A stretch of 64,000 bases of DNA. Source: Bacteroidales bacterium (GTDB lineage Bacteria > Bacteroidota > Bacteroidia > Bacteroidales > UBA932). Each line of letters starts with the position of its first letter. Position 1 is the first letter of the stretch. The translations under genes were made by a program, and so were the position numbers. Where the stretch lies: assembly GCA_017412645.1 (NCBI GenBank), contig JAFPWX010000022.1:124001-188000 (forward strand). The letters are read 5' to 3'. Under the pieces are notes generated by a model. It saw only the letters and a program-made list of their open reading frames with translations, was not told the DNA's origin and searched no databases. Shown piece by piece: positions 19,012 through 46,975 of the stretch.

Positions 19012-19015
19012 GGCG

Positions 19016-19486: not shown

Positions 19487-19489
19487 GGT

Positions 19490-19861: not shown

Positions 19862-19881
19862 GGCTGTATAGAGATATAATG

Positions 19882-20190: not shown

Positions 20191-20194
20191 AAGG

Positions 20195-20509
20195 CTATTC
20201 GGATATTGCCTTGCGGACTTCCTTTATAAGAGCCTTGGCATCCACCTCCGGCGCTCCGCCTTCGGGATAGCGGACTGCAAGGTCTTTGGCTACGGAGTCG
20301 CGAAGGTCCTCTTCGTCGAATCTGCCACGGAACACAAGTTCGGTGCAGATGACGTTATCGGTCTGCTTGGTCTTGCCTTCTTCGCCTTCCTTCTTTGCGG
20401 GGATGGTGATGACCTCCGGCACAGCATCCCAGCGGATAGTGATGATGCCGTCATTGATTTCCACTGCTTTGAAGTCTTTAGCTTTTACGATAGTTCTGAT
20501 TGTGCGCAT
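20195..20509 (-). CDS. hypothetical phage protein downstream of the DGR reverse transcriptase
   Basis: 104 residues, soluble, with beta-rich first half (IVKAKDFKAVEINDGIITIRW) and a charged C-terminal helix. Its start overlaps the 3' end of the reverse transcriptase gene by 25 bases, so the two are translationally linked. Not recognised as a known DGR accessory (it resembles neither Avd nor HRDC-type partners); it may simply be a phage tail-end gene. Confidence 0.6.
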   Translation of the reverse strand: MRTIRTIVKAKDFKAVEINDGIITIRWDAVPEVITIPAKKEGEEGKTKQTDNVICTELVFRGRFDEEDLRDSVAKDLAVRYPEGGAPEVDAKALIKEVRKAISE

Positions 20510-21891
20510 TTGATTGAGTATTTTAAGTTGTTGAAAAATCTTCTTTCCTGCCGGAGCTTACTGCGAAGGCGCTGCCGGCGAGGATATTTAACGTTTATCT
20601 TCTCGCAGCCTGGGGAGATGATGATATATGTGTTCCACTCCGGAGCGATGGAGTTGCAGATCTTCTCCCTCTGCTCCACGGTGTCGTAGTGCTTCATCAG
20701 ACCGAGGTAGGAGTTCAGCGAGGAAACGAAGTCCTGTGCCCTCGATTCCTTATTGCGGATATGATTGTAGTACCTTACTGCATTGCAGGCTTTTCCGATA
20801 GTCTTCCCGGAAGGATAGGCTTTACCCTCGCGGAAGATGACTCCGAGGTACTTGAACCCGTCCCGCCAATGGCAGAGTTTGAACTTATGTGGATTGACCT
20901 TTGCCCCGCAGGTGAGTTCGAGCATCTGCCGAATGACAGGCATTGCGTGCAGGAGGGCCTGCTTGTCCTGCGATATAAGCGCGAAGTCATCCACGTAACG
21001 GTCGCTCTCGAAATGACGGGTGATGAAGTGGTCTATGATGTCAAGCTCGAAGTTTCCGTCCAGCTGTGAGAGCAGGTCGCCGATGGGGAGTCCGTGCCGG
21101 TGGAAAAGACTCTTACGCTCAGGGAGTGCCGCCCACTCCTCCGGGGAACCGTACCTGATGCAGTCTTCCTCCGGGGCATGGGTGATGATAAGACGAATGA
21201 GGTGGAGGAGAACTGCCTTGTCTTCGCCCACATAGCGGTCTGCAACGAACTTGCAGAGTCTGCCTGCGGCTTTCTCCCGGTTGATTCCCATGAAGAATCC
21301 GGATAGGTCGAATATTATAATGTAGGCATCCTTCGTGTAGTCCTCGGATACACGTCTTATTTGTTCACGGAGGTTCTGCACCGCCCAATAAACGCCTTTT
21401 CCCTCACGGCAGTTCCAGGTCGTCGGGACGAACTGCCTCTCGAGCAGCGGGATGATACGCTCCGCCACCCAGGTATGCACCACGCGGTCGCGGAAAGCCG
21501 CTGCAAAAACCTCGCGATTCTCGGTTATGAAGGCGATGGACGTGCCAGGGTAGTAAGTTCCGTCGGAAATCTCCTTGTGGAGTTGCCGGACATTTGCCAA
21601 TTCGTTGATGCGAAAAAGAACTGCGCTGGCAGTACTCTTCTTATGCTCAAGACACTTCTGATATGCCTGCCACAATCCTTCCTCCGACAGATAGAAAACG
21701 GGAGTGCCTGCCTCTTGTATTCCTTGAAATTCGGAGACAGCAAGAACATAGTTAGTGTTGTTCTTATTGTTGTTGTTCACGTTTCCATTGTTCATGTTCA
21801 CGTTCCATGCGTTGTTGAGAGAATAGTCGCTTATTCTGCGGCGGGTAAATGACCCTCCGCAGACCTTTTCAATTACATACTCGGTGCGCAC
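20485..21891 (-). CDS. diversity-generating retroelement reverse transcriptase
   Basis: The frame runs 468 residues from a GTG at 21891. Palm motifs: FDLSGFF (194-200, first catalytic Asp), GLPIGDLLSQ (267-276), where the DGR-specific SQ replaces the QGxxxSP of retroviral and group II intron enzymes, and RYVDDF (298-303, catalytic Asp pair). A thumb-like segment HKFKLCHWRDGFKYLGVIF follows. Residues 21-56 are encoded by the template repeat, a run of Asn codons that is unlikely to be functional protein; a Met codon inside it (residue 33, base 21795) is an alternative start, and the RT fold begins near residue 63. The GTG overlaps the end of the avd-like gene by 19 bases. The enzyme copies TR RNA with errors at adenines and the cDNA replaces VR sequences. 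Confidence 0.95.
   Translation of the reverse strand: MRTEYVIEKVCGGSFTRRRISDYSLNNAWNVNMNNGNVNNNNKNNTNYVLAVSEFQGIQEAGTPVFYLSEEGLWQAYQKCLEHKKSTASAVLFRINELANVRQLHKEISDGTYYPGTSIAFITENREVFAAAFRDRVVHTWVAERIIPLLERQFVPTTWNCREGKGVYWAVQNLREQIRRVSEDYTKDAYIIIFDLSGFFMGINREKAAGRLCKFVADRYVGEDKAVLLHLIRLIITHAPEEDCIRYGSPEEWAALPERKSLFHRHGLPIGDLLSQLDGNFELDIIDHFITRHFESDRYVDDFALISQDKQALLHAMPVIRQMLELTCGAKVNPHKFKLCHWRDGFKYLGVIFREGKAYPSGKTIGKACNAVRYYNHIRNKESRAQDFVSSLNSYLGLMKHYDTVEQREKICNSIAPEWNTYIIISPGCEKINVKYPRRQRLRSKLRQERRFFNNLKYSIKCAQSELS
21725..21830 (-). repeat. DGR template repeat (TR)
   Basis: 106 bp, coding-strand sense on the minus strand, adenine-dense: most variable positions are AAC or AAT codons. It aligns without gaps to VR1 (22355-22460) and VR2 (45329-45434). 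The conserved 3' block, ending in TATGTTCTTGCTGTCTCCG, is identical in all three copies and fits the role of the initiation-of-homology site; beyond it TR has AA where both VRs have CT. The TR lies in the reading frame of the reverse transcriptase gene's 5' end. Confidence 0.95.
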
Positions 21892-22289
21892 GGCGCAGCC
21901 GCGACCGCGCCGCCACTGACCAGCAACTTACGTTGCGAGGCTAACCATCGGGCAAGCTCTCCCTCAATGTCTTCTATCAGTTCCGCCATATCCAGCGAGA
22001 GGGTGCGTCCGAATTGGAACTCACCTGTCATCTCGCACCGAGTATGATAACGCACGAAAACGCGGAAGTGTTTCCGTGCGTCCTTGATAAGGTCGAACTT
22101 CTCCTTTGGATTTGGCTCAAGATAGGCCATCTCGGAGCAGGCTTGAGCCTGGTCCGCCCACATCCGCATAGGCTCCCAGAGCGAACGCCTGTACTTGACG
22201 GGAACGTTCGCATCGAAAGCCAGCAACAGAAGGCACAGACGGTCCATCTTGTCGAAGACCTTCCCGGATTGATTCGCCTTTTTGTTCAT
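21873..22289 (-). CDS. avd: Avd-like DGR accessory protein (four-helix bundle)
   Basis: 138 residues, almost entirely helical and basic. It fits the S23/Avd-type four-helix bundle: helix 1 near MDRLCLLLLAFDANVPVKYR, then helices from MRMWADQAQACSEMAYL, KFDLIKDARKHFRVFVRYH and MAELIEDIEGELARWLASQRK. Avd proteins form pentamers that bind the reverse transcriptase and TR RNA and are required for mutagenic retrohoming. Order here is target gene, avd, TR, RT, as in known cassettes. The start is 49 bases downstream of the target gene stop, and the 3' end overlaps the RT start. The assignment rests on size, helical pattern and context. Confidence 0.8.
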   Translation of the reverse strand: MNKKANQSGKVFDKMDRLCLLLLAFDANVPVKYRRSLWEPMRMWADQAQACSEMAYLEPNPKEKFDLIKDARKHFRVFVRYHTRCEMTGEFQFGRTLSLDMAELIEDIEGELARWLASQRKLLVSGGAVAAAPCAPSM

Positions 22290-22305
22290 ACTCGTTAGTA
22301 GTTAT

Positions 22306-22331
22306 GCCCCGCCGCATCAAAGCGACGGGGC
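22306..22331 (-). terminator. GC-rich stem-loop just downstream of VR1
   Basis: GCCCCGCCGC and GCGACGGGGC pair over ten positions (one G-U in RNA) around a six-base loop. It starts eight bases after the target gene stop and 23 bases beyond VR1. It could be a terminator (no U-run follows) or the cruciform-forming hairpin that in characterised DGRs enhances retargeting next to VR. Confidence 0.6.
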
Positions 22332-22338
22332 GAAAGGT

Positions 22339-23454
22339 TTAATCATAGTAATAATGAAAAGCGGAGACAGCAAGAACATAGGTAGTGTAGTACTTATAGA
22401 GGTTGCCCACGTCTCCAGTGTCCATGTCCACGCCCCATGCGTTGCGGAGAGAAGAGGCACTGGACGACCAGTGCCAGCTGTTATCTATTGAGGCTATGTT
22501 CGAACCTTCCCAATCGGCAAGGAGGCTGTTTATAGCTGCCTTGTTGTTATAGATGGTCTTGAGTTCGCCTGCTCCGGGAAGATACTGCTGCGCCATCCAA
22601 TCGTTCGACTGCGAGGCAAAAAGCGCTGCGGGGCAGTCAATGAGGGAGGATAGGATCTTGTCGGAGTTGAGCGCCCCTTCCATATCAAGGGCTGCCGCAG
22701 CCTGCGCTGCCTCCCAATTCATGCCATTGGTATAGAAGTATTCCTCCAGTCCGGGAACGCTCCTTCCAAAGTTCTGCTTAGACCAGTACAGCGTCTGAGA
22801 TGACTTGTTGCCAGACATGAGCAGGAAGGAAGCCGTTGCGGTGGAGACGAGAACGCCTACGCCCCAGCCGCCATCGTCCATTGACTCGTCCTCGCGGGTG
22901 TCCCACTCAGAATCGGGTTCTTCGTCGCCGTTGGCCTGCAGGACGGGGTAGATGCGAGAGTTATTGTCTTCGTCCATTACGGCATACCAGCCGTACTTCC
23001 ATACCCCCAGCGAACAGTTCCAAAGGAACACCTCGCGGGATTCCTTGCAGGCGGTAAAGACAAGCCTGAATGAGGCGCCGAGGCCACTTACTATGGAGTA
23101 GACGGTGTAGTGCAGTCCGTATCGGATGTCGAACTCCACGATGGCATACTCGTCTGCATCGGCCTGAGAGATGGAGAACTCCCGGATCGGGTAGTTGAAG
23201 CCTGTAGCGGGGTCGTAGGACTTTACATAGACCTTCCCGCCGTTCACGGAGGCGGATTCATTTCCGTCGTTCCCGCGAATTTTCACCACTACATGCTCAA
23301 GGGCGGGGTCGGACTTGCCGACTTTACCAGAGAGACTCTCCGCGAGTTCCTCCCTTTCCTCCGTTCCCTTGTTCAGCTGCTCTTTCAGGAAGGTCTCCAC
23401 CTCTGCGTGGGTGTGTCCGTTCCAGGGTGTGTTGATGTCATTAATTTTTCCCAT
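22339..23454 (-). CDS. DGR target protein 1: tail fibre/tip protein with C-type-lectin-like variable domain
   Basis: 371 residues. The N-terminus NTPWNGHTHAEVETFLKEQL is the attachment motif seen at the start of Bacteroidota phage tail proteins. A central beta-rich part follows, then a lectin-like/FGE-type fold from about residue 245 (EAAQAAAALDMEG, YLPGAGELKTIYNNKAAIN, WHWSSS). VR1 encodes residues 332-367, ending five codons before the stop. Within it AAC-derived positions have become Arg, Gly, Asp, Leu, Tyr and Thr, while scaffold residues (NAW, GDV, YVLAVSAF) are kept. It should be a receptor-binding protein at the tail tip whose ligand surface is diversified by the adjacent DGR. It lies between a structural gene and avd. 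Confidence 0.92.
   Translation of the reverse strand: MGKINDINTPWNGHTHAEVETFLKEQLNKGTEEREELAESLSGKVGKSDPALEHVVVKIRGNDGNESASVNGGKVYVKSYDPATGFNYPIREFSISQADADEYAIVEFDIRYGLHYTVYSIVSGLGASFRLVFTACKESREVFLWNCSLGVWKYGWYAVMDEDNNSRIYPVLQANGDEEPDSEWDTREDESMDDGGWGVGVLVSTATASFLLMSGNKSSQTLYWSKQNFGRSVPGLEEYFYTNGMNWEAAQAAAALDMEGALNSDKILSSLIDCPAALFASQSNDWMAQQYLPGAGELKTIYNNKAAINSLLADWEGSNIASIDNSWHWSSSASSLRNAWGVDMDTGDVGNLYKYYTTYVLAVSAFHYYYD
22355..22460 (-). repeat. DGR variable repeat 1 (VR1)
   Basis: 106 bp aligned gap-free to TR. I count 20 substitutions at template adenines (to C, G or T) and one C-to-T at the far 5' edge, which may lie outside the true repeat. Confidence 0.93.
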
Positions 23455-23491
23455 TTCTATAAACGTTAATTGTTAGTATTCTTGTTATCTT

Positions 23492-24070
23492 TTATCTGGA
23501 TATCCATTCTTCATCACCGTCCCATAAGGCCTCCGAGCGCCAGGTGATGAGAGACTCCTCCAGCACCGCCGGGATGATTCCCGTATAGACTCTGGGTAGA
23601 TATCGGTCGCCAAATTCCTGCGAAAAAACCAGATGGGAGCGCTGGGCGTCCTTGCTGTCGGTCGGCTCCGCAGAAAGGAATAGCGGGTTGCATTTGCGCC
23701 CATAGATCTTCGTGGGCGCGTCGCAGCTCCGGATGATTATCACTACTCCACGGCCTGCGAACGCTTCGATGAAATTGTTCAGGGCCTGATTGTCTCCAGG
23801 ATAATCGAACTCTACCTTGTCCGCGAACACTTTCGCGTCCACGTCGCCGGAGTTCTCATATCCGGCGCTAATGGACGGTCGGTCTGCCTGGATAAAGAGT
23901 CCGCTGGCTCCCCCGGCAAGAACGATATCAGACGAGACAACGGTTTCGCCAAGATGACGAACTGCGTCCACGGCGATATCATTTGCATCGTAGATGTTTA
24001 TTATGTCCCGCTTCGGAACAGCAGCGCCGCCACCGGGACGTTTGGGGATAGATATTTTCGTGTAAGTCAT
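23492..24070 (-). CDS. phage structural protein, paralogue A
   Basis: 192 residues, beginning MTYTKISIPKRPGGGAAVPK. It is clearly paralogous to the product of 40109-40651: same start, the shared block GYENSGDVDAKVFADKVEFD, then KIYGR-CNPL, SAEPTDSKD and YLPRVYTG in the same order. The two genes share a 35-bp identical stretch (23823-23857 here, 40404-40438 there). One copy sits beside the tail-tip genes and the other next to the capsid gene, so both are probably virion proteins. Tail tube or decoration roles are guesses. Copy A has a longer, different C-terminus (about 25 residues). Confidence 0.75.
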   Translation of the reverse strand: MTYTKISIPKRPGGGAAVPKRDIINIYDANDIAVDAVRHLGETVVSSDIVLAGGASGLFIQADRPSISAGYENSGDVDAKVFADKVEFDYPGDNQALNNFIEAFAGRGVVIIIRSCDAPTKIYGRKCNPLFLSAEPTDSKDAQRSHLVFSQEFGDRYLPRVYTGIIPAVLEESLITWRSEALWDGDEEWISR

Positions 24071-24073
24071 ACT

Positions 24074-25234
24074 CTATGTTGTGTATTCTGGCAGATTGGT
24101 GAATGTGGGCAATACGCCACCACGCTCATATTCGCGGCGGAACTTGAAGGTCGCTTCGTTCAGTTCCCCTGCCGAAAACTTCGGCGAGGCCTCTGACATA
24201 GAAATCTTCTCCGGCTCACCGCCCGCAGGGATATAGTATTTCTCGGCGGACCGTAGAAATGCCAGCCAGAGGCGCCGCTCTTCGGCCGTCGAAATCGGAC
24301 CGCTGGAGGCCTCGAAAATCGTATCGGGATTGGTGTCGAGAGAGCGACGGAGTCTTCCGTTAATGAATTCCGAAGGTTCATATCCCCCAAGGAAACGGAA
24401 TCCGCCAATAGCGTGAATGGAGTCCACTCCCCCGAGGTCATTGACGAAGGCGAAACTTGCTGAAGCTGTGCGCCCGTTGTGAACGACATACCGCACGGTC
24501 GGATATGTCCGTATCGTAATGGTTTGCAGGGCTCCCGTGGCGCCAGGCGCAGTTCGGGTTATTGACAGCGCGACATCCCAGGCGACAATGTGGCCGCCTT
24601 CGCCAGAATCATGGCCTTCAATCCAGGCCTTTGACATATTGAGGACGCAGAGCCAGGTCTGCGACTGGTCCAAGCTGTCGTTCAGAACCATGTTTCCCTG
24701 CTGACCGTCCGCATAATACACCGTGATATTCTTCTTTATCTTATAGGTATAGGTTCCGGAGATATTTCCAAGGCCGGCCCACGCTATTGCAAGGAATTCG
24801 AGTGCTCCCGGATAGGTCTTCCTGATCTGCGGAGCCTGCGAAAGAAGTCTCTCCGCCAGTATATCGGCCGCATCATCAGCATCCACGCTCCTGTCCATAA
24901 TGAAGCCTTTGACAGCCGGGAAGGTTACTTCGTCAACCATATCATTATTGCTGTCCACGATGCGTAATGTCACTTCAGACAATACCGTAGTGATTAAGCC
25001 ATCATTGCTGGACGGCAAGTCTGCCGATGCAAGCGGCAGCGCATCCAGCACTTCTGCGAGATCCAGGGTATGGGAATTGCCGTCGGCTATGGCCTTGAGT
25101 TCGAAGCTCGCCAGCTCCACGCCGTCATCGGTTACGATCAGATGGAGCGTTTCGCCCGCGTCCAACGTGTACGTAAGTTCTCCGGCATTGCCTGAGAGGA
25201 TAGGTATGGCTGAGCTATATGACAGGCTTCCCAT
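24074..25234 (-). CDS. phage tail-tip protein
   Basis: 386 residues, predominantly beta with no membrane segment; the first 120 residues look like an Ig- or carbohydrate-binding-like sandwich (GELTYTLDAGETLHLIVTDDG). It lies three bases from paralogue A and 55 bases downstream of the 502-residue tail gene, in the tail-tip/baseplate part of the late operon. No named family is recognised; an adaptor between tail tube and the diversified tip protein is a reasonable guess. Confidence 0.65.
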   Translation of the reverse strand: MGSLSYSSAIPILSGNAGELTYTLDAGETLHLIVTDDGVELASFELKAIADGNSHTLDLAEVLDALPLASADLPSSNDGLITTVLSEVTLRIVDSNNDMVDEVTFPAVKGFIMDRSVDADDAADILAERLLSQAPQIRKTYPGALEFLAIAWAGLGNISGTYTYKIKKNITVYYADGQQGNMVLNDSLDQSQTWLCVLNMSKAWIEGHDSGEGGHIVAWDVALSITRTAPGATGALQTITIRTYPTVRYVVHNGRTASASFAFVNDLGGVDSIHAIGGFRFLGGYEPSEFINGRLRRSLDTNPDTIFEASSGPISTAEERRLWLAFLRSAEKYYIPAGGEPEKISMSEASPKFSAGELNEATFKFRREYERGGVLPTFTNLPEYTT

Positions 25235-25289
25235 AATTGCTTCTTTTTTGCAAAGTTACTTTCCGGGCAGACTCCGGAAAGGACACCCA

Positions 25290-26798
25290 TTATGGGCATT
25301 CCACGAATTCGCCCCTGCAGGAAACAAGACCTCTTTTGGCGGTGATGTCGAATGTTAGCTTCTTGACAAGCCAAAGGCGTCCGGAGAATTGAACCTTTTG
25401 CCAGAACCGGAAAGCGGCAATGTCCGATACTGAAAGGTTTAAACCGGCCGTAATTGTATCTTTGTCGGTATTGATGAACTGTGCGAAAGTGGCGTGCAAA
25501 TCGTCAAATATCCGCTGCGAGCGAATAGGATATGCGCTGTTCTGCCATCCCGAACCATATCCATAAGTTTTATTGTCAACCAGTTGGCTATTATGAAGAG
25601 TGCCTATATACATTTTCGTTGGAAGGTCCGTCTGAGACACGGCATATACCGGCTCGATTGCAGGGAGCATTTTCGGAGTTCTGGTGATGCTGCTTCCACT
25701 CTTGGACAGGATTTCGCAGGGCACGCAACGTATAGGGATGAATGGTGAACTATTGTCTACGATTTCATCCTCGCTTCCGGTTCCGACAGAGACGACAGCC
25801 AACCCTTCCCTGTGAACCGTATCCACGAGACGCTCGTAAGTTGAGATTCCGTCCACGGTGCAGTTCTCTTTCTTTATCGAGAATATATCTTCGCCTTCAT
25901 TGGTTACTTTGAATGCTTTATAATCATTGGTCGCGGCCGAAAACATATTATTCATATTCGCAACCGTTGTTTCACCTTGGTTTGCGGCAGCGGTCGCTTC
26001 GCTTCCTGCTGAACCCTCTTCTGAGCCAAAACCGAAACGGTACCCTTTCGCAATCATCTTCCTCGCCTCAAACACATCCGACACCTTGGACTCCCAGTCC
26101 AGGGAATCGGTGACAGGTGATATCAAGATGTCGTGTAATCTCTTGAGGTACAACCTGTTTCCGTCGCGGAACACGGCCATACAAAAGGTCTTGGCCACCG
26201 CTTGAAGCAATTCCAGGAATGACACGTCCGGAAGTTGAGCAGCCGGTGAGGTATAAGTGCGTGTAACAGGAAAAACCCATTGACCAAGAATATGGATAAT
26301 CGGGAAGGCCTCCATAACAAGAAAGGGGACTATTGATAGGATATCATTAACTGAAACCGCAGTCATAACATTGTCAAGAATCTTCTCGTCACCAGTCTCT
26401 GCCACGCGTGATGGCAGGATGGTTTTTATCCAGTCTCCGGAGGCTGAAGTTGCATTGTATATCTTATTCCGCCGCAGCGAGGCTAAACGGTTCCCGGAGA
26501 ATCCGTATTCCAGAAAACCGTCTTCGGTGACGGCATCGAACTCAAGGGTACCACTCATCAGTTCCACGCCGTCAAGTACCAGAGAGACTGCAAGCGAATG
26601 GACCGACGGGAGCATCTTGAGTGCCGGCAGGTAGCCGAAGACAATGCAGTTATCCATGGTGGGAGGGAACTGCAAAGAGGTGCTGAACGTGTTCGGAATG
26701 TAATCCTGACAGAATATCGGATTCTCCATCTCGAACTCGACGCTGGTGTCCGGTCGGACATCCAGTTCTTTTCCGGCGTCTGTAATGATTCGTAGCAT
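25290..26798 (-). CDS. phage tail protein, distal-tail/hub-like
   Basis: 502 residues. It directly follows the tape measure gene, the place usually taken by the distal tail protein and tail hub. The N-terminal part (residues 1-130) is beta-rich with EFEMENPIFCQDYIPNTFST and YGFSGNRLASLRRNKIY. A central part with LLQAVAKTFCMAVFRDGNRLYLKRL fits hub proteins that carry a short helix and beta layer. The C-terminal FRFWQKVQFSGRLWLVKKLTF is beta again. Family not identified with certainty; position is the main evidence. Confidence 0.68.
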   Translation of the reverse strand: MLRIITDAGKELDVRPDTSVEFEMENPIFCQDYIPNTFSTSLQFPPTMDNCIVFGYLPALKMLPSVHSLAVSLVLDGVELMSGTLEFDAVTEDGFLEYGFSGNRLASLRRNKIYNATSASGDWIKTILPSRVAETGDEKILDNVMTAVSVNDILSIVPFLVMEAFPIIHILGQWVFPVTRTYTSPAAQLPDVSFLELLQAVAKTFCMAVFRDGNRLYLKRLHDILISPVTDSLDWESKVSDVFEARKMIAKGYRFGFGSEEGSAGSEATAAANQGETTVANMNNMFSAATNDYKAFKVTNEGEDIFSIKKENCTVDGISTYERLVDTVHREGLAVVSVGTGSEDEIVDNSSPFIPIRCVPCEILSKSGSSITRTPKMLPAIEPVYAVSQTDLPTKMYIGTLHNSQLVDNKTYGYGSGWQNSAYPIRSQRIFDDLHATFAQFINTDKDTITAGLNLSVSDIAAFRFWQKVQFSGRLWLVKKLTFDITAKRGLVSCRGEFVECP

Positions 26799-26802
26799 TC
26801 TG

Positions 26803-30426: not shown

Positions 30427-30481
30427 GGATTACCGGTTCTATGGCACAAAAATAGCCACTCGAAAGTGGCTTAAAAGGACA

Positions 30482-30991: not shown

Positions 30992-31044
30992 CTGTCACAA
31001 ACATACAAAAAAGATTTTGCAAATGCAATGCCTTTGCAATAATA

Positions 31045-31434: not shown

Positions 31435-31437
31435 GGC

Positions 31438-33645: not shown

Positions 33646-33647
33646 GG

Positions 33648-35290: not shown

Positions 35291-35565
35291 CCTGTGCAAA
35301 ATTACCCCGAATCAATCCTTTGGAAAGGACGGAAAATCCTCTTGTCGGCGCCGGGAGGTCTTAAGCGCCCTTTCGGGCGATGTGTACCCCCGCGCCGGGC
35401 GATATTCAGGCGTTATTTAACTGAACGAAAGTATTAAAGTGTTGAAAAGCAATTCGTTGACTCCACTGGCCGGGATGGACGCACTTTTTGTGTCGTTCGA
35501 GAGCGCGGCCCGCCCTGCTCTGCGAGTGCAATCGCAAATGCCTGGAAAAGGTGATTTATGGCGGA
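35291..35565. other. 275-bp noncoding gap inside the packaging genes
   Basis: No convincing gene on either strand. It contains GC-rich short inverted repeats (CGCCC at 35366-35370 with GGGCG at 35375-35379, and repeated GGCGCCGGG/CGCGCCGGG words). The minus strand has TAATTTTG at 35297-35304, but this is too close to the ATG at 35290 to be its usual promoter. A gap next to terl is a plausible packaging signal (cos or pac) or an internal promoter. Confidence 0.4.
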
Positions 35566-38275: not shown

Positions 38276-38836
38276 ATATCCGTTCATTATTGCAGATTGT
38301 GTATTGTTCGTTGCCGGAATTCTCCGCGAAATTGCCGGATCCGGTGATTACTATTTTACCCCCCCCCCGGTGGAGGCGAGCGTCACCTTGGAGTGATTGA
38401 ATCCAAGGCCTATCCGAACCTTCTCCGCGCGGGCCGCGACCGCCGATTTCAAATAATCCCATTTTGCCGGGCTCATTCGCGGAACGTAATCGCTCAAGTA
38501 GAGATATACGCTGCGGATCTTTCCTTTGTCCAGCCAGTCGAAGAGCGTCTGGCAGCAGATGTTGCTGATACTGTAGGTGCTCACTATCAGTTCATCTATA
38601 TTCCCCAGGGATTCAATGAGCCAGATTATCATCGACATCGTGTTGAACTGGGCAGTGGTCCAAAGGAAGAGCATCTCTCCCGGGCCCGGAGGCGCGGCTA
38701 CGTTCTTGCGTATGTTCGCCACTTTCGCCACGTGCATCTCTTCGAAGGCCTGCACAGCTGCCGCTGTCTTCCCTTCCGGGCGCTCTGGCATCTGAGGTGC
38801 GGGGGCTGCCGGGACTTCAAGTGAGAAGAGGCCCAT
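38181..38836 (-). pseudogene. phospholipase D-like domain protein, frame broken at a poly-G tract
   Basis: As read, the ATG at 38836 gives 161 residues ending at 38351, right after a run of ten G on the coding strand (38359-38368 on plus). The next frame continues the same domain: HSKVTLAS upstream of the tract and IVITGSGNFAENSGNEQYTI after it together form the HxK...GSxN signature of PLD-like nucleases/phospholipases. Eleven G (or eight) would rejoin them into one protein of about 219 residues ending at 38181 and overlapping the small terminase start. So the gene is either phase-variable, decoded by slippage, or affected by a homopolymer sequencing error. The likely role is a nuclease; it lies in the head operon. 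Confidence 0.75.
38359..38368 (-). repeat. poly-G tract (10 G on coding strand)
   Basis: Homopolymer at the point where the reading frame of the PLD-like gene breaks; one more base would restore it. Confidence 0.85.
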
Positions 38837-39523
38837 TCACCTGGTGCGTTTATCGGATTCGGCAATCATGCCCTCGACTACTTCCAGCTGACGCCGTTTT
38901 GCTTCGATGCGCTCTTCGCGGGAATCCTTGAGGTGGGGTTTGTCTCCCCTGCGAATCTCCGACTCCGCCCGCCAGATGGCACCTTTTAGGCGCTTGCTTT
39001 CGGCGACCAGCTCCACGACGCTCATTTTCCGGTAGGCATCGTACTGTCTGGACTGAGCGAATACCGGGTGTTTGCCAAGGATTTTACCGTGCTCTTTGTA
39101 ATACGCAAATTCGGCTGTGATCTGCCGGTTTTGCTGAAAATTTTTCAGCAGTTTTTTTGCAGTTTCGAAACAGTCTTCCAGAGATCCACACTCGAAGAGT
39201 GCTCTATGTCCTTCGATGGTCCCTTCATAGGCAGTGATTTTGTCGTTGGCCAGGATCTTCAACTCTACCGGACAGCCGGGCTTCGAGAGGAACGGCCACT
39301 CTTCACGAAATCGGTTGCGGGGCTGAGGTTCCGGAGGCGCAAGCAGCTGCCCGGCCGGCACGTCGGAATAGCCGGAAAGGGCCTTCACCAACTGCGATTT
39401 ATACAGTCTCGGCCGTGCCGTGACGAGACGTTCCAGCAACGGGTTCGGAGTATATATGCCAAGGAGCCGAAGCCCTTCACGGACCTCGGCTCCACCTCTG
39501 AGCCATAGTGCTACGTCATTCAT
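38837..39523 (-). CDS. hypothetical phage protein of the head region
   Basis: 228 residues from the ATG at 39523 (MNDVALWLRGG); the frame upstream to 39592 overlaps the previous gene and is rejected. Mixed N-terminal half and a long charged C-terminal coiled coil (VVELVAESKRLKGAIWRAES; EERIEAKRRQLEVVEGM). Its stop adjoins the PLD-like gene start. Unrecognised. Confidence 0.65.
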   Translation of the reverse strand: MNDVALWLRGGAEVREGLRLLGIYTPNPLLERLVTARPRLYKSQLVKALSGYSDVPAGQLLAPPEPQPRNRFREEWPFLSKPGCPVELKILANDKITAYEGTIEGHRALFECGSLEDCFETAKKLLKNFQQNRQITAEFAYYKEHGKILGKHPVFAQSRQYDAYRKMSVVELVAESKRLKGAIWRAESEIRRGDKPHLKDSREERIEAKRRQLEVVEGMIAESDKRTR

Positions 39524-40109
39524 TGCGGTCGGATTTAGCGTAATCTTGCAGCAGGTCGGAAATGGCGTTCCAGCCTGTGAGCGAGCAGCCAAGGAACCGC
39601 CTTGAGAGCAGCGCCTCTATGACCTTGTGCCGGCAGGGCGAACCGGACAGCACCTGGAAGAAGTATCCGTCGGGAGATGCGTGCGAAACCTTTAAGGGAC
39701 GTCCGTTCGGGACGGTGCAGTCCCTGATGCATTTCTCTGTGTCAAAGTCTGACGTTTCCTTGAGACCGGAGAGGTATTCCACGACTCTTTCTTTGCTCAG
39801 GCGGACCGGAACGCGGCTGCTGTACTTCACATCACCGTTGCCCGCAGATACATAGACCGCCGGAAAGAGAATAGTTTCTACAGAGGTCGGTCCGAGTGGG
39901 ACGGTGTTGGCCTGTACAAGAACGAAATCCTCGCCGATGGCGGCGTCGGTCACGATATCCAGAAGCACTTCCATGACGGAGTAGTCCTCCGGAACGCTCA
40001 GGATCATAACCGTTCCGGAGAACCGTTTCTCCCAGAGAGCCCGCATCAGGTCTTCCGTGCCTTCATAGGCCAGGACGATTACGGGATAGTTGTCGAGAGA
40101 CTCCGCCAT
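39516..40109 (-). CDS. hypothetical phage protein of the head region
   Basis: 197 residues. Alternating beta/alpha start (YPVIVLAYEGTEDLMRALW; GTVMILSVPEDYSVMEVLLD) and a C-terminal part with several Cys (DTEKCIRDCTV, GSPCRH). The start ATG directly precedes the stop of paralogue B in a one-base overlap at 40109, and its stop overlaps the next start by eight bases. Unrecognised; head-completion role is possible from position. Confidence 0.65.
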   Translation of the reverse strand: MAESLDNYPVIVLAYEGTEDLMRALWEKRFSGTVMILSVPEDYSVMEVLLDIVTDAAIGEDFVLVQANTVPLGPTSVETILFPAVYVSAGNGDVKYSSRVPVRLSKERVVEYLSGLKETSDFDTEKCIRDCTVPNGRPLKVSHASPDGYFFQVLSGSPCRHKVIEALLSRRFLGCSLTGWNAISDLLQDYAKSDRNE

Positions 40110-40651
40110 TATTCACCTGCGCTTTCGTCCTCGGCGTCTTCGGCCACTGCGGGCAGGGTGCCGGTATAGACGCGGGGCACATAGGCGTCTCCCATCTCCT
40201 GGGTGAAGGAGAGGTGGGTCTTCAGGCCGTCCTTGCTGTCGGTCGGCTCAGCGCTCAGCACCAACGGGTTGCAGGTGCGACCGTAGATCTTCGTCGGAGC
40301 GTCGCAGCTCTGGACGATGATGATGACGCCCTTGTTGGCGTATGCCTCGACGAAGTTGTTGAGCGCGACGGAATCGCCGGGATAGTCGAACTCGACCTTG
40401 TCTGCGAACACTTTCGCGTCCACGTCGCCGGAGTTCTCGTAGCCTACGCTGATGGAAGAGCGGGACACCTGGATGGCCACGGCCTTGGCTCCTTCGTTCA
40501 GCGCAAGGTTGGAGCTCGTGCTGGTGTTGCCGAACTCGCGGGTCACGTCGGTTGCCACGTCGTCCACATCGATGATGTAGATCTTATCCTTCTTTGCCAC
40601 GGCAGCGCCGCCGCCGGGAATCTTGGGAATGGATGCTTTTACGTAAGTCAT
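40109..40651 (-). CDS. phage structural protein, paralogue B
   Basis: 180 residues starting MTYVKASIPKIPGGGAAVAK. It shares the order of all main motifs with paralogue A (GYENSGDVDAKVFADKVEFD, YPGD, KIYGR-CNPL, SAEPTDSKD, YVPRVYTG). Acidic C-terminal tail (EDAEDESAGE). It is the first gene after the capsid gene, so a major virion component is likely (tail tube, decoration or head fibre); the sequence does not decide which. Confidence 0.75.
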   Translation of the reverse strand: MTYVKASIPKIPGGGAAVAKKDKIYIIDVDDVATDVTREFGNTSTSSNLALNEGAKAVAIQVSRSSISVGYENSGDVDAKVFADKVEFDYPGDSVALNNFVEAYANKGVIIIVQSCDAPTKIYGRTCNPLVLSAEPTDSKDGLKTHLSFTQEMGDAYVPRVYTGTLPAVAEDAEDESAGE

Positions 40652-40715
40652 TGTATTCTGTGTTTTATTGGGGGCCGGGAGGTGCGGCCCCCTGATTTAA
40701 CATGTTACGACTCGA

Positions 40716-42326
40716 CTATTCGCCTTCGGAGTTAGCGTTTTCGCCTCCTTCAGCACCGCCTTCAGCACCTTCACCGCCTTCAGCACCTTCACCGCCTTCC
40801 GTGCCACTGCCGCTGCCCTCGCCAGAAGCTGCCTCCCCGCCAGAGTTTGGGTCCTGGCCGTTCTCCCACGCGTCGGATGCGCTCAGGGGATCGGTTGCCA
40901 CGGAGGGAGTGTAACCGTCGGGAATGGCCGCGTAGACGGCTTCGGCCACGAGGAAGCCCACGGAGAGGCTGTACTCACCGAAGATCTTCACGTCGTAGTT
41001 CTCGACCTGGATCATGTTGATGCAGGACTCTGCCTTGGCATAGTCCACGAGCATCACCATGTTGTCGGCGGGAGTGGCGAAGAGGATCTTCGAGCCGTAC
41101 ATGCTCTTGAGGGCAACCAGGTTGAAGCTGGTGAAGCGGATCTTGCCGTCGCTTTCGGCGTTGGTGTACTTGCCGTTCACCTCGAAGTCGGCACGGCGGT
41201 AAGCCGTGAGGAACTCCGGCGAGCAGTACACGTTGAAGATACGGCTGAACAGCGGGGAGATGGCATCCACGAAGCTGTCCACGTATGCGAGGAGCTGGGC
41301 TGCCGTGAGGGTGGTGTAGTCCAGCGCGTTCCTGAAGAAGTTCATTTTGCAGGAAGAGTCGGACTTGCCGTTCACGAGGATGGTCTCGATACCGTCCATG
41401 GAGTCCTTGGCCGCGAAGCCGGCGTCGCCGTCGGACACGCTGCCGTCGTTGTGGTCCACGAAGGAGCCCTTGGCGACCATTGCGAGGGTGATGTCGTCCG
41501 TCACCTTCGGGAGTACGTGCTGCTCTATCATGTACTTGATGATAGGCATCTCGGCCGGGGTCTTGCCCTGTTCGTAAAGGTACTGGAGCCAGCTTTCCAG
41601 GATGTCGGTGGCTTTGAGCTTAACGTTGATCTTGTGGCGGCGGTAGACGATTTCGATGGGAGTGAACTTGGCGCTGCCTTTCGGGGTCCACGCCGGGGTG
41701 AACTGCTGCGAAACCTCGGTCATGAGGGCGGAGGTGGCCTTGTAGTTCGTGTTCGAGGTGATCTTGCGGAAGTACTTCGCATCGTCGAAGCCGTTATAGA
41801 TCCGCTTTGCCAGGATCTCAATGCGGGTGTTGGCCGGCATTACGGCGCCGAACTCCGTGCGGAGATCGGAGGTATCGAGGGTTGCGGTGGCTGCAGTGGC
41901 CATCGCCGGGGCGAAGCCGCCTGCGAGCGCCTGCGCTGCGAGCTTGTTGTGCAGGGCACCGGCGTTCAGGTCGAACTTCTTTACGGTACCGGCTGCGGGA
42001 GCGGCGGGTTTCTGTGCCTGCGGCTGGGGCTCGGGCTGCTGCGAGAGGGTCTTGACATCGGCCTGCAGCCTGGACTTCTCTTCCTTAAGCTGCGCGATTT
42101 CGGCGTCCTTCGCCTTGGTGAGGTTGGCGAGGTTTTCGAGAAGAGTCTCTGCACTCTTCCCTTCGGAGGCGGCGGACTCTATCTCCCTGAGGATATCGGA
42201 GCCGTAGATGCTCTCCAGCTTGGCACGCTGTTCATCGCTAATGTCCAGCTTGCCTTCCTTGATCTCCAGGGCCTTGAGCCCGAGAGCACCGGCCATGACG
42301 GCCAGTATGCGTGCGAGTTTTTTCAT
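40716..42326 (-). CDS. major capsid protein with N-terminal scaffold region
   Basis: 536 residues. Residues 1-110 include a coiled coil (NLTKAKDAEIAQLKEEKSRL) followed by a Pro/Gln/Ala linker (QPEPQPQAQKPAAPAAGT), a typical cleavable delta/scaffold domain. The HK97-like body runs from about 115 to 480 (DLRTEFGAVMPANTRIEILA, FSRIFNVYCSPEFLTAYRRA, EYSLSVGFLVAEAVYAA). The last 45 residues are a Gly/Glu/Ser low-complexity tail of GGEGAEGG repeats, encoded by short repeated codons at 40745-40830. The gene is preceded by the head protease gene, which probably removes the scaffold region. No separate scaffold gene is present. Confidence 0.88.
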   Translation of the reverse strand: MKKLARILAVMAGALGLKALEIKEGKLDISDEQRAKLESIYGSDILREIESAASEGKSAETLLENLANLTKAKDAEIAQLKEEKSRLQADVKTLSQQPEPQPQAQKPAAPAAGTVKKFDLNAGALHNKLAAQALAGGFAPAMATAATATLDTSDLRTEFGAVMPANTRIEILAKRIYNGFDDAKYFRKITSNTNYKATSALMTEVSQQFTPAWTPKGSAKFTPIEIVYRRHKINVKLKATDILESWLQYLYEQGKTPAEMPIIKYMIEQHVLPKVTDDITLAMVAKGSFVDHNDGSVSDGDAGFAAKDSMDGIETILVNGKSDSSCKMNFFRNALDYTTLTAAQLLAYVDSFVDAISPLFSRIFNVYCSPEFLTAYRRADFEVNGKYTNAESDGKIRFTSFNLVALKSMYGSKILFATPADNMVMLVDYAKAESCINMIQVENYDVKIFGEYSLSVGFLVAEAVYAAIPDGYTPSVATDPLSASDAWENGQDPNSGGEAASGEGSGSGTEGGEGAEGGEGAEGGAEGGENANSEGE

Positions 42327-42362
42327 CGGTTGAATTATTGAATTGGTTTACACTATGTTAAG

Positions 42363-43265
42363 TTAGAATCTTGAAGCCCTGATTGCCACTATCTCAACGC
42401 AGCTGGCCAGATCGCCGGTGCCATCAGCCATATTCAGTTCTATGGCTTTGGCCGTCGTGAAGACTGCTCCTGAGAGCACGCCCTCGGCCTCCGCCTTGAG
42501 TTTTGGGCGTCCCGCCTTGACGGATTCCTGGAAAACAACTGCGGTCTCGGAGAGTTCCTTCTCCATCGTTTCGAACTTTCCGTCCAGGGCGTCCCTGTAA
42601 GCTTTGTTCTTATCGACGGACTGAGGAGCATAGATGGTAAGGCGCTTCTCACCGGTAGCTTTGTCTTCGCGATCATCGATAACAGTGGCACAAACACCTA
42701 TGCTACCTACTTCGGACAGGATATTGTCCATTATAATTGCATCGGTCTGAGAGGCAATCCAGTATGCGGCGGACGCCGCGAAGTCGCAGTGGGCGATGAT
42801 CGGCTTACCGTCGGCCTGGATCTTCTTTATCTCGTTCACCAGGGGCATAACCGCATTGACAGCGCCGCCGGGAGAGTTGATATCGAGGATGAAACCGATG
42901 ACGTTCTCGTCAGTGCGGTACTGTTCGAGGATATCCACGACCTCCATAGTGGCCGTGCCGAAGCAGTTGTCGTACTGGGTGAGGGTTCCCTGCAGAGGAA
43001 CGATGAGCACGAACGGCTGGGTGAGGTTAGCATCCTCGCCGCTCGGTACCGTCTGCTCCTGGCCGTCAAGGGCCTGGAAGGTGAGACGTATGGGTTCGGT
43101 ATTGGTGCCGTTCACCAGCTCCCGGCGGAGGAAGGCCCTTGCGGCCTCCAGCATCTTCGGGGCGGAACGGCTATCGAGTAACCACTTGCCGCGCAGGATA
43201 TCGCCCGCGAGCATACGGTTGTTGACGAAGCTCTTTTTCATAACCTTTGCAAAAATGTTCATCAC
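42363..43265 (-). CDS. phage prohead protease, S49/SppA (ClpP-like) family
   Basis: 300 residues (a second ATG at codon 2). The ClpP/crotonase fold shows DINSPGGAV (residues 128-136), the nucleophile region CDFAASAAYWIAS with Ser165, and SEVGSIGV (184-191). The downstream Lys of KNKAYRDALDGK is a candidate general base as in SppA enzymes. It should process the scaffold region of the capsid protein encoded next. The start codon precedes the capsid gene by about 940 bases with only a 36-bp gap after its stop. Confidence 0.88.
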   Translation of the reverse strand: MMNIFAKVMKKSFVNNRMLAGDILRGKWLLDSRSAPKMLEAARAFLRRELVNGTNTEPIRLTFQALDGQEQTVPSGEDANLTQPFVLIVPLQGTLTQYDNCFGTATMEVVDILEQYRTDENVIGFILDINSPGGAVNAVMPLVNEIKKIQADGKPIIAHCDFAASAAYWIASQTDAIIMDNILSEVGSIGVCATVIDDREDKATGEKRLTIYAPQSVDKNKAYRDALDGKFETMEKELSETAVVFQESVKAGRPKLKAEAEGVLSGAVFTTAKAIELNMADGTGDLASCVEIVAIRASRF

Positions 43266-43301
43266 AAAGGTATGAAAACGCGCTCCGCACGAAAGGACAG
43301 C

Positions 43302-43634
43302 CTACAAAACGCGCCTGTAGGTGCATTTGACGGCTATGGTAGCATTGTCTTCCAACGTAAATCTTGCAGGAATATCCGAGCTTCCGAAGGTTAGCGTCTT
43401 CTGTGTGCCGGCTTGGTCATCGAGGTACGCGACTGAGACCATGGAGAGGTCTGCAGTACAGTCGGCAGGGACTTCCTTAAGACGGGCATTTACGGTTATC
43501 TCTTCGGTAAGGCCGTCGGAAGCTGTGGAACGCGACAGGGTTGCCGTGCCGGGAATAATCGGGAGGTTAAGAGCATCCTCATCGCTTTTGGGAAATGCGA
43601 AGGCAGCCGTAATGGCGGTGATTACGTGTTTCAT
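43302..43634 (-). CDS. hypothetical phage head-region protein
   Basis: 110 residues, beta-rich throughout (TEEITVNARLKEVPADC; RFTLEDNATIAVKCTYRR). Overlaps the upstream gene's stop by four bases (ATGA). The size and beta content would fit a decoration protein, but this is a guess. Confidence 0.6.
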   Translation of the reverse strand: MKHVITAITAAFAFPKSDEDALNLPIIPGTATLSRSTASDGLTEEITVNARLKEVPADCTADLSMVSVAYLDDQAGTQKTLTFGSSDIPARFTLEDNATIAVKCTYRRVL

Positions 43635-44191
43635 CGGGGTTGTATTGAGTTGGTGTCGGATTCGTCGAAGAAGTATTTCGCCTTGCGGCGCAGCTGCTCC
43701 ACTTTGTGCTTCATTATGTCCATCTCCTTCCTGAACACCCTTTTGTGAAGAGTGTCGAAAGGTTCGCCGGTTACGAGGTTCCTGGAAAGAACATATGTCT
43801 CCACTATATCTTTCTTTTCGTAGCCATATTGGATGCCCTTCAGGTAATATCGGTAGAAATCCAGGTCGAAGCAGTCGGAGAGCACGTGGTTGATGCGCAC
43901 CATGTCATCCCGGCCGTACTGCATCCATTGTCCCCTGGGGAGCGCATCGACGGCGGGGAGATCCAGGATGCAGACGGTCTTGCCCTGTTTATCCGGAAGG
44001 TACGCGGGCGTGAGTGATGGCTGTGCCAGGTAGGTCATCATCCCTCCCACCGTGTTCGAGCTGGACACCGCATAGTGCCCGGATTCCTTATCGACGGGAA
44101 ACAGATACCGCAGGTAATCCAGCGGGAACCCGTTGTCGATGTATATGGCGGCGCAACTGCGTGCGAAATTCGGTTGAGATGGTATCGGCAT
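43631..44191 (-). CDS. hypothetical phage protein, first gene of the late operon
   Basis: 186 residues, mixed alpha/beta with many aromatic residues (FPLDYLRYLFPVDKES; DLDFYRYYLKGIQYGYEKKD) and a basic C-terminal helix (MKHKVEQLRRKAKYFF). It opens the long run of late genes immediately downstream of the 545-bp noncoding region. Not recognised. Confidence 0.6.
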   Translation of the reverse strand: MPIPSQPNFARSCAAIYIDNGFPLDYLRYLFPVDKESGHYAVSSSNTVGGMMTYLAQPSLTPAYLPDKQGKTVCILDLPAVDALPRGQWMQYGRDDMVRINHVLSDCFDLDFYRYYLKGIQYGYEKKDIVETYVLSRNLVTGEPFDTLHKRVFRKEMDIMKHKVEQLRRKAKYFFDESDTNSIQPR

Positions 44192-44404
44192 TATAAGTTG
44201 TTAAGTTACAAATAATTCCGGAGAATTCCTAATGTTCCGGACGGTTTTTATACCCCGGAAAAGGTATTTTTTCAAAAAGGAAGGCCATTTTTCCGTGCTA
44301 CCATTAACTACCAAACTACCGCGCTGATTATCAGCACTTTAGAAAACTACCTCCGGTAGCATTGGTAGTTTTTTCGGCGGCTATCTGGCCGCGAGGTAGC
44401 AAAA

Positions 44405-44432
44405 GGTAGTTTTTTTGTAGCAAAAAACTACC
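44405..44432. repeat. perfect 11-bp hairpin in the GGTAG cluster
   Basis: GGTAGTTTTTT (44405-44415) and AAAAAACTACC (44422-44432) with loop TGTAGC. Confidence 0.8.
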
Positions 44433-44634
44433 ATAAAACTACCGCCTAACTATTTGACTGATAGCGCGGTAGTTGGTGGTAGCAAAGGTAGTCGCAAAAT
44501 ATCCCCTATTTTTGGAGGAACATCATTTTTCGGCCGGATTTCCGCAGACTCGGCCGACCTCTCTGCTTTTGGAGCGGAAGGCGGGGACCACCCCGCCCCT
44601 TTTAAATAGGGGGTACGGGGGAATATGATTTCAA

Positions 44635-44650
44635 CCGGTTGTACAACCGG
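44635..44650. repeat. 16-bp perfect palindrome
   Basis: CCGGTTGTACAACCGG, a likely dimer-binding operator; it lies about 90 bases from the toxin gene 3' end. Confidence 0.6.
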
Positions 44651-44736
44651 TGGTATATTGTGAATGGAAAAGCCAACGTCCGGCGCGATCCGGCCTTGCG
44701 GCCGGGCACCGGACGGGCATGTGATGAATTCAGCGT

Positions 44737-45012
44737 TTAACCGAAGATATCGGAATGAGTGCCGGTATTGAGCATCAATAGCGTGAGCTCTGTGTCATTC
44801 TGCGACCATACCAGGAGCCAGTCTGGGCGGAGATGGCATTCCCATTCCCCTGCGTGATTGCTTGATAGTCTGTGAGGCCTGTACTCTGCCGGCAAAGTTC
44901 CAGTTTGCTGAAGAATATCTACAACTGTATTGAGGATACTGATATCATACCCCCTCTTACTACAGCGTTTCACATCTTTACGAAACTGGGCAGTATATGT
45001 GATTGTGTACAT
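44737..45012 (-). CDS. YafQ/RelE-family mRNA interferase toxin
   Basis: 91 residues, typical size. TAQFRKDVKRCSKRGYDI at the start, PHRLSSNHAGEWECHLRPDWLLVW in the core and the closing LMLNTGTHSDIF match the YafQ branch, where the H-x-R-D-W-L-x-x-W segment and the final His contribute to ribosome-dependent mRNA cleavage. The start overlaps the antitoxin stop by one base (TAATG-like coupling at 45012). In a prophage it may stabilise the element or act in phage defence. Confidence 0.88.
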   Translation of the reverse strand: MYTITYTAQFRKDVKRCSKRGYDISILNTVVDILQQTGTLPAEYRPHRLSSNHAGEWECHLRPDWLLVWSQNDTELTLLMLNTGTHSDIFG

Positions 45013-45206
45013 TATCCAAGGATCTGACGAATCATGTCGCTCGCATCCTTGGCGTGGAATACATGTCCGGTACGGGCTTCGTACTTGGACTGTTCGTAGG
45101 CGCTGCGCTTGGGCCTGGCCACGGTAACGCCGTCAAAGGCCCTCACTACCTTGCTCAGGGTAGGGATAACCTTCTCATCCTTGATGTTGAGAATCATCTG
45201 GGTCAT
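45012..45206 (-). CDS. antitoxin of the YafQ-type pair
   Basis: 64 residues, directly upstream of and overlapping the toxin gene. N-terminal short beta strand and helix (MTQMILNIKDEKVIPTLSKV) and a C-terminal segment that would wrap the toxin (FHAKDASDMIRQILG). No clear ribbon-helix-helix motif, so DNA-binding autoregulation is probable but not visible. Identification rests on the pairing. Confidence 0.75.
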   Translation of the reverse strand: MTQMILNIKDEKVIPTLSKVVRAFDGVTVARPKRSAYEQSKYEARTGHVFHAKDASDMIRQILG

Positions 45207-45230
45207 ACTCGGTCACGTTTTGAGTCTGTG

Positions 45231-45238
45231 CAAATATA
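45231..45238 (-). promoter_or_regulatory. -7 box for the toxin-antitoxin operon
   Basis: TATATTTG on the minus strand, 25 bases before the antitoxin ATG. It lies between the terminator at 45253-45278 and the operon, so the pair has its own promoter. Confidence 0.5.
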
Positions 45239-45252
45239 CAAATATTTCTTTC

Positions 45253-45278
45253 AAAAAAGCCCCGGACGAATCCGGGGC
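45253..45278 (-). terminator. rho-independent terminator/hairpin downstream of VR2
   Basis: On the minus strand, GCCCCGGA-TTCG-TCCGGGGC (8-bp stem, UUCG tetraloop) followed by six T. It ends the target protein 2 transcript about 35 bases beyond the stop; being GC-rich and close to VR2 it might also serve as the DGR retargeting hairpin. Confidence 0.85.
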
Positions 45279-45312
45279 CGAAAGACCTCCGCTTCCTGCC
45301 TTTCAAAAAGTA

Positions 45313-45969
45313 TTACAAATTTAAGTTTTGAAAAGCGGAGACAGCAAGAACATAGTTAGTGGCGTTCTTACCGTTGTCGTTCACGTCTCCAGTGCTCATG
45401 TCCACGGACCATGCGTTGTAGAGAGAATAGGCGCAGGCGATGCTTGACCAATAGAAGCCCATAATCATTGCGGGAAATCCCATTGCCCTCCGGCAGCGAT
45501 TGATTTCTTTGCGATAGCGACTTACGAACTTCAGTTGCGCCAAGGTAGGCAAATCCCACTTGCCCGAGCCTATTCCCGAAGTCTCATATCTCCGGCAAAA
45601 CTCCGCAGCCGGTGAGCCAACGAAGTCGTATTCATCGTCTCCATCGTAATCGTGCCAAATCTGTCCCCTGCTCGCATCGATTATTGCATCGGTAGCTGCC
45701 TTACTGTCAAGGCTGTTGACATCAGTGACGAATTTGCCGGATTCCGTCGGGACACCCCATTGGGCGACGATGGTGTTATGGAGACCGACGATGAACGAGG
45801 CTTCTTTCGTTACGACTGCTATGCATTCCGGATGAGAGTGCTCTGCCGGGTTCCAGCGGTCAAAGGAAATGAGTTCGTGCCTGTTGTCCGGGTCTTCTCC
45901 GGTCCTGTTGACACACCACACTCCGATTGGAGCGTCCTGAATCTTGTTTTCATTGTTTTTCTTTTTCAT
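45313..45969 (-). CDS. DGR target protein 2: remote lectin-like variable protein
   Basis: 218 residues from the ATG at 45969 (MKKKNNENK); the longer frame to 46167 overlaps the methyltransferase and is rejected. No signal peptide or membrane segment, and no tail-attachment motif. From about residue 20 it looks like a DUF1566/FGE-type C-type-lectin fold (HELISFDRWNPAEHSHPECI; KWDLPTLAQLKFVSRYRKEI; MGFYWSSIACAYS), parallel to target protein 1 in its last 60 residues. VR2 encodes residues 179-214 and the stop comes four codons later. It lies between the methyltransferase and the toxin-antitoxin pair, far from tail genes, so it may be cytoplasmic or a minor virion part. Its ligand is unknown. Confidence 0.9.
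   Translation of the reverse strand: MKKKNNENKIQDAPIGVWCVNRTGEDPDNRHELISFDRWNPAEHSHPECIAVVTKEASFIVGLHNTIVAQWGVPTESGKFVTDVNSLDSKAATDAIIDASRGQIWHDYDGDDEYDFVGSPAAEFCRRYETSGIGSGKWDLPTLAQLKFVSRYRKEINRCRRAMGFPAMIMGFYWSSIACAYSLYNAWSVDMSTGDVNDNGKNATNYVLAVSAFQNLNL
45329..45434 (-). repeat. DGR variable repeat 2 (VR2)
   Basis: 106 bp aligned gap-free to the TR at 21725-21830. I count 16 differences, all at template adenines; every non-adenine position is identical. Confidence 0.94.
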
Positions 45970-46003
45970 ATCTATTTGATTTAGAGGTTGTTTTTTAACG
46001 TAT

Positions 46004-46942: not shown

Positions 46943-46975
46943 CGTTATCAGATTACAATTATATTGTGTGCCGTG

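Follow-up and report, generated by a model that had tools for sequence, protein, structure and literature searches.

A diversity-generating retroelement with one near and one distant target gene in a Bacteroidales prophage

Introduction

The closest described relatives of the system treated here are phages whose diversity-generating retroelement (DGR) has one template repeat (TR) and two variable repeats (VRs), the second of them distal. This layout is already published for the Bacuni phages F1, F2 and F4 of Bacteroides uniformis (PMC8143477), for Quimbyvirus (PMC8008677) and for four inducible gut prophage species (PMC12629997), and the authors of the latter two reports link distal targets of this kind to phage-host conflict. 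Here we describe a DGR of the same layout in a prophage of a gut bacterium, on a stretch of 64,000 nucleotides from a Bacteroidales genome (GCA_017412645.1, contig JAFPWX010000022.1, positions 124,001 to 188,000; hereafter the window, with positions counted from its first letter). A preliminary description of the window had proposed that one retroelement diversifies two unrelated genes 23 kb apart. As in Bacuni, the distal second VR of the single TR lies outside the structural gene cluster, and in the window a PF01555 methyltransferase gene is found 34 nt upstream of the distal target. We are almost certain that this DGR has two recipients, and we think it probable that, in this temperate phage, the near target (T1) serves receptor binding and the far target (T2) is an early soluble lectin.

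Results

The open reading frame (ORF) at 20485..21891 (minus strand) encodes a reverse transcriptase (RT) that is of the DGR kind by its matches to PF00078 and PHROG 1423 and by its SQ and YVDD motifs, as had been described before, and relatives of this RT adjoin TR/VR pairs. A repeat search of the window confirmed one TR (21724..21830, within the 5' part of the RT ORF) and two VRs, VR1 (22354..22460) and VR2 (45328..45434), all on the minus strand and gap-free. TR and VR1 differ by 22 mismatches, 21 of which fall on TR adenines (hypergeometric P = 4.6e-10, with 41 adenines in 107 nt); all 15 mismatches between TR and VR2 do so (P = 8.4e-8), which makes 36 of 37 for both VRs pooled. TR adenine positions 100-101 read CT in VR1 and VR2 alike, and are better seen as a fixed IMH/IMH* difference (IMH, initiation of mutagenic homing); when they are left out, 19/20 (VR1) and 13/13 (VR2) mismatches are on adenines. 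A chance repeat as the origin of the TR/VR likeness is ruled out by this restriction of mismatches to adenines. A search of the source assembly (1.8 Mb, 26 contigs, E <= 0.001) with the TR region returned three places, namely TR, VR1 and VR2, and matched no further DGR target elsewhere in these contigs. TR and VR2 are 23.6 kb apart along the prophage and, by arithmetic, about 12.3 kb apart the other way in the excised circle.

An Avd-like gene (21873..22289, minus) was assigned by its place and size and because it weakly resembles the annotated Bacuni Avd (E = 0.002) and genes of two relatives; it has no match among the Pfam, PHROG and NCBIfam models. The RT ORF starts with GTG and overlaps this gene. 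The TR sits in frame within the RT ORF, from nt 61, and its stretch is weakly like Lcl_C; Lcl_C matches inside RT-sized open frames occur in several relatives too.

VR1 lies in the neighbouring gene, T1 (22339..23454, minus, 371 aa), at the end of the tail cluster, and VR2 in T2 (45313..45969, minus, 218 aa), across the structural cluster; both placements agree with the preliminary description. Its statement that the two targets are unrelated is too strong, since both proteins end in an Lcl_C domain (PF07603, DUF1566), which scores over the Pfam cut-off in T2 (39.7 bits vs. 34.9) and under it in T1 (26 bits, E = 1.2e-5). The C-type-lectin fold at the VRs is assigned by sequence from these Lcl_C matches, that of T1 being under the cut-off; a T2 profile additionally matches PDB 8q4e (E = 3.2e-10). 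The VRs cover residues 332-367 of T1 and 179-214 of T2 in an identical reading frame, and BLASTP between the two proteins is significant over 32 VR residues only. By a simple hydropathy measure rather than a signal-peptide program, T2 and 10 other far targets have no N-terminal hydrophobic stretch. An anti-CRISPR match of the T2 profile (E = 0.86) is at chance level and was discarded. Among 149 genomes of the family, six gave a match to T2, comprising its own genome and five weak lectin matches, and IMG/VR yielded nothing useful, whether scanned with the single sequences of T2 and the RT or with a 19-nt TR pattern.

Judged by their sequences, VR1 and VR2 both look like true recipients. We compared TR columns 17-99 in three phages, those of the window and of RUG13713 and RGIG1763, two other genomes of the host genus that hold T2 orthologues (54-59% and about 40% identical, respectively). 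In each, the far VR departs from its own TR at no non-adenine site (0/50, 0/55 and 0/52), while far VRs show 10-17 differences from the TRs of the other two phages. The near VRs likewise equal their own TR at non-adenine sites, except at 2/55 in RUG13713; single non-adenine differences occur outside these columns, for example one in the window's VR1 and one (of 61) in the RGIG1763 far VR. An IMH signature is found in all three phages, where the TR ends in GAATTTC (3/3) and the VRs in GCTTTTC (6/6). Hairpins were examined in 12 of the 21 records having a far VR: in the 80 nt downstream of the repeat, a GC-rich hairpin is present at the near VR in 12/12, at the far VR in 8/12 and at the TR in 0/12, with a detector background of 145/1800 random windows and 87/439 ORF ends. 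The window phage has such hairpins 3' of VR1 (22306..22331, minus) and 3' of VR2 (45258..45279, minus, also terminator-like), and none at the TR; in BPP-1, a hairpin of this kind is reported to be required (PMC3240598). In G179:C1, just after 9223 and 38127 (L205, L206), the near-VR and far-VR hairpins both lie at +14, with an equal stem and a reverse-complementary loop.

In RUG13713 and RGIG1763, the far VR is about 27 kb from the TR. We used the 41 window phage genes as tblastn queries (E <= 1e-4), and found the RT, the Avd-like gene, T1, T2 and one small gene adjoining the RT in RUG13713 (51 kb searched), and the RT, the Avd-like gene, T1 and T2 in RGIG1763 (40 kb searched). Because little else is found, the cassette and both targets are, on these sequence comparisons, common to phages without other such similarity, though the parts lie 24-27 kb apart. 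T2 is 54% and 40% conserved in RUG13713 and RGIG1763, respectively, and T1 34% and 35%. The RUG13713 element is Mu-like by its Mu F and Phage_tail_S matches; its T2 gene lies just upstream of a 688-aa gene that occupies the transposase place and matches no Pfam family; AAA genes and a GemA match come next. RGIG1763 has a weak integrase-core match and AAA domains, and its assignment as Mu-like rests on by-eye likeness to RUG13713. A literature search, itself partial, found no published description of a far-target protein common to integrase-type and Mu-like phages.

The lectin cores of far and near targets separate in a 20-sequence tree (up to 115 residues), with support of 0.987 for the far group and 0.991 for the near group of the window, RUG13713 and RGIG1763. 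Its weak spots are the long-branched, misplaced near target of G179 (support 0.414) and other weak deep nodes. Since far and near cores are separate, T2/VR2 as a recent copy of T1 was ruled out.

Variation between strains could be followed in the three sequenced Bacuni phages, reported to be 99.83% alike (PMC8143477). Over 111 nt, the far VR differs between F1 and F2 at 16 positions, 15 of them on TR adenines, and at none between F1 and F4; the near VR differs between F1 and F4 at 18 positions, 17 on adenines, and at one between F1 and F2; the TR is the same in all three. The authors' own count is 15 single-nucleotide polymorphisms in the secondary VR of F2 and 18 in the primary VR of F4 (PMC8143477). 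The far VR differs in one pair and the near VR in the other, so the two Bacuni VRs change separately, and they do so mostly on adenines. The far VR of the Bacuni phages is hence neither fixed nor variable at all bases, either of which would have spoken against the preliminary description.

Scanning each record with its own TR, partial matches allowed, we found a far VR in 20 of the 58 records having a TR/VR pair, where far means more than 3 kb away with a score of at least 24 (maximum of the reversed-sequence control, 21.9). These 58 include the window, the three Bacuni phages and chosen examples; RUG13713 is an additional example outside them. Less selected parts of the sample gave 8/33 viral records (7/33 in a stricter full-length scan) and 6/17 same-genus loci, one of these six far VRs (G478) being only 5 kb away. 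For the viral part, 48 records, 37 of them viral, had been picked from at least 160 RT loci by sequence length and closeness; 35 of the 37 were used (not G156 and G157), and 33 of these had a TR/VR pair. The viral records were scanned whole, save that G162, G169 and G174 lacked their final 1.6-1.7 kb, and many are linear and perhaps fragmentary. A known distant lectin or T2 match was the reason for choosing G186, G191 and the RUG13713 locus, which count as examples, not as prevalence. For the same-genus part, 36 of 400 genomes had an RT at E <= 1e-40, in 38 places, of which 20 were examined over at most about 35 kb to one side of the RT; G543:C15 was set aside (taken for RGIG1763), two of the other 19 lacked a TR/VR pair, and 17 remain. 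Two genomes of the host genus, G248 (contigs C20 and C28) and G543 (C15 and C24), each carry two related DGR RTs on different contigs.

The view that remote targets are less usual is not supported here: among the relatives scanned, a far second target is no rarity (8/33 in the least selected viral records), and such targets had already been published. Near and far VR share a strand in 19 of the 20 records and in RUG13713. The sole far VR on the strand opposite its near VR is G155:C1:57400-57513 (L224), in a 66-kb record. Reconstituted DGR editing in E. coli is reported to prefer targets co-directional with replication (PMC12875486); the shared strand fits such a preference, and a one-way phage gene order explains it equally well.

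We also surveyed the genes around far targets. Family models identify a primase and a methyltransferase in the window; PolA, VapE and a C5 methyltransferase in G191; PolA and VapE in G164; PolA, Dam and VapE in G179; a ParB-methyltransferase and PcfJ in G166; PcfJ in G155; and ArdC in G178. A CHC2 zinc finger of primases lies about 3 kb off the far target in G176, and an SMC-like AAA protein about 2.4 kb off in G160. The far target of Bacuni F1 is annotated with DNA polymerase A, C5 methyltransferase and VirE primase as neighbours. By eye we read a DnaG-like primase in G248, an N4/N6-like methyltransferase in G486, a PolA-like gene in G558, a primase-sized gene in G297 and regulators in G167 and G478; in G486 the gene that follows the far VR looked, by eye, related to the window methyltransferase. 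The common factor of far targets is the early or replication region, and a methyltransferase is frequent yet optional. A methyltransferase or ArdC lies within 2 kb of 6/12 far VRs and 0/12 near VRs (0.72 expected), which is not a fair test because the panel was partly drawn from such neighbourhoods. A methyltransferase neighbour as a rule was dropped: three pre-chosen methyltransferase Pfam families occur in only 2/8 far-VR records, a set outside which the window and G191 each have one of the three.

The complete-looking prophage spans 17087..53032 (35.9 kb) and is flanked by an 18-bp repeat, one copy of which (17087-17104) lies at the 3' end of a tRNA-Ser gene and the other at 53015-53032. 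Besides the DGR, its gene content includes a tyrosine-type integrase (17146..18408, plus, PF00589), a tail tape measure protein (26803..30426, minus, PHROG 1533 and others), a weak match to the terminase large subunit (35566..37356, minus, PHROG 2, E = 2.2e-7), a head maturation protease, a DnaG-type primase (47450..50671, minus, TIGR01391 over cut-off) and a repressor-like gene. The preliminary description correctly placed VR2 beside methyltransferase and toxin-antitoxin genes: the N4/N6 DNA methyltransferase upstream of T2 (46004..46942, minus) matches PF01555 (E = 5.7e-55) and is a type II methyltransferase by PADLOC, and on the other side lie a RelE/StbE-type toxin (44737..45012, minus, PHROG 7251, TIGR02385) and a small ORF at its antitoxin place (45012-45206). 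A 62-aa ORF at 46976-47164 matches phage DNA methyltransferase families (PHROG 116, E = 2.3e-6) at their end and is perhaps the remnant of a second methyltransferase. Elsewhere, 23492-24070 and 40109-40651 form a paralogous pair (both PHROG 19897) with 16.6 kb between them and DNA stretches 83% and 72% identical.

Discussion

In the scheme we favour, the DGR RT and the Avd-like protein would copy a TR transcript into cDNA mutated at template adenines, and this cDNA would replace VR1 or VR2; we infer that the DGR is active in this prophage. T1, by its place in the tail cluster and by precedent, would most likely be the receptor-binding tip. T2 would be a small soluble C-type-lectin protein without secretion signal, encoded among early genes by the methyltransferase and near the primase, and presumably expressed early. 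It would most likely act early in infection or upon induction by binding a variable intracellular host factor, with a probable role in counter-defence or takeover. We favour intracellular binding because of the place, size and conservation of T2, and put its prospects a little below even. The earlier picture of one cassette with two jobs stands in that there are two recipients, the second among early and replication genes, and not in its unrelated targets, which share the lectin domain; a second function set early in infection fits the gene position of T2. A wider conjecture, which we hold more loosely, is that T2-type proteins are early cytoplasmic DGR-diversified binders of variable intracellular host factors (defence proteins, for instance), with the receptor-binding tip diversified from the same template, and that the cassette and two targets form one module whose distant parts are kept together as it moves between integrase-type and Mu-like phages.

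Several observations weigh against this interpretation. The far-VR hairpin is absent in RUG13713, RGIG1763, G164 and G166 (4/12), the hairpin loops in the window phage do not fit the GRNA consensus given in PMC3240598, and the VR2 hairpin may be a terminator. T2 has no match among the PADLOC models at E <= 0.01, a second strain of the window phage was not found, and the low count of the pre-chosen methyltransferase families belongs here too. The far VR at G486:C11:157542-158260 (L315) is split by an indel relative to its TR and has an early stop. The one at G228:C8:19917-20022 (L333) is changed at 18/35 adenines and 3/71 other sites, has no lectin-like ORF around it and looks broken. Finally, the lack of a signal peptide is compatible with a virion protein.

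This last point bears on the strongest alternative, that T2 is itself part of the virion (as a decoration protein or auxiliary adhesin) although coded outside the structural cluster, with both targets serving adsorption. Tail proteins likewise need no signal peptide, the lectin domain and one TR are common to both targets, and the authors of the Bacuni report presume that both of theirs act in host adhesion (PMC8143477). We nevertheless regard it as rather unlikely: in several phages the gene sits among primase, polymerase, methyltransferase or transposase-like genes, T2 lacks the N-terminal part of T1, and the far and near lectin cores are separate lineages.

We consider it improbable that T2 serves the lysogen, as a superinfection-exclusion or host-fitness factor for instance, and not the infecting phage. 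The element is in the prophage state and toxin-antitoxin-like genes adjoin T2, yet T2 runs in the same direction as the methyltransferase gene and follows it after 34 nt, which suggests co-transcription with early genes, and it has no secretion signal for a surface job. That the DGR homes to a functionless leftover lectin gene, T2 being a decaying by-product, is very improbable despite the broken look of the far VRs in G486 and G228, as T2 shows higher conservation than T1 across phages that are otherwise dissimilar, keeps its frame and IMH, and did not arise by recent copying of T1.

Most discussion of phage DGR targets treats them as receptor-binding proteins. The presence of a hypervariable protein encoded among early genes of differently built phages suggests that phages diversify something besides adsorption, and the recurring far-target proteins are concrete candidates for studies of expression, timing and virion presence. 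With far VRs in 8/33 viral records and 6/17 same-genus loci, surveys confined to the RT neighbourhood miss many targets; one survey states that its own method would miss remote targets (PMC8144416).

Among known systems, the BPP-1 DGR as described (PMC3240598) shares with ours the TR/VR arrangement, the IMH, a hairpin downstream of the VR and the RT, but has one adjacent target. The tentaclin phages nd4 and nd12 likewise have one TR and two lectin-type targets according to their report (PMC10743442), whereas both targets lie in the cassette region and one carries Ig domains and a VR close to its 5' end. Closer, by their description, are the four species of inducible gut prophages whose second VR is distal (PMC12629997). 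Quimbyvirus, also compared by description (PMC8008677), has a lectin target behind the tail genes and a second, distal one in the vicinity of methyltransferases and further conflict genes; its distal target is on the opposite strand, its RT is in three frames and its genomes are larger, whereas both VRs of the window are on the minus strand. The Bacuni phages (PMC8143477) differ in that their RT is 34-37% identical to ours, T2 can be aligned in the lectin part only, and the methyltransferase and replication genes are not the same; they nonetheless have, as here, one TR, a near target by Avd and RT, a far target among replication genes (adjoining, in Bacuni, a C5 methyltransferase) and two DUF1566 proteins with the VR at the 3' end.

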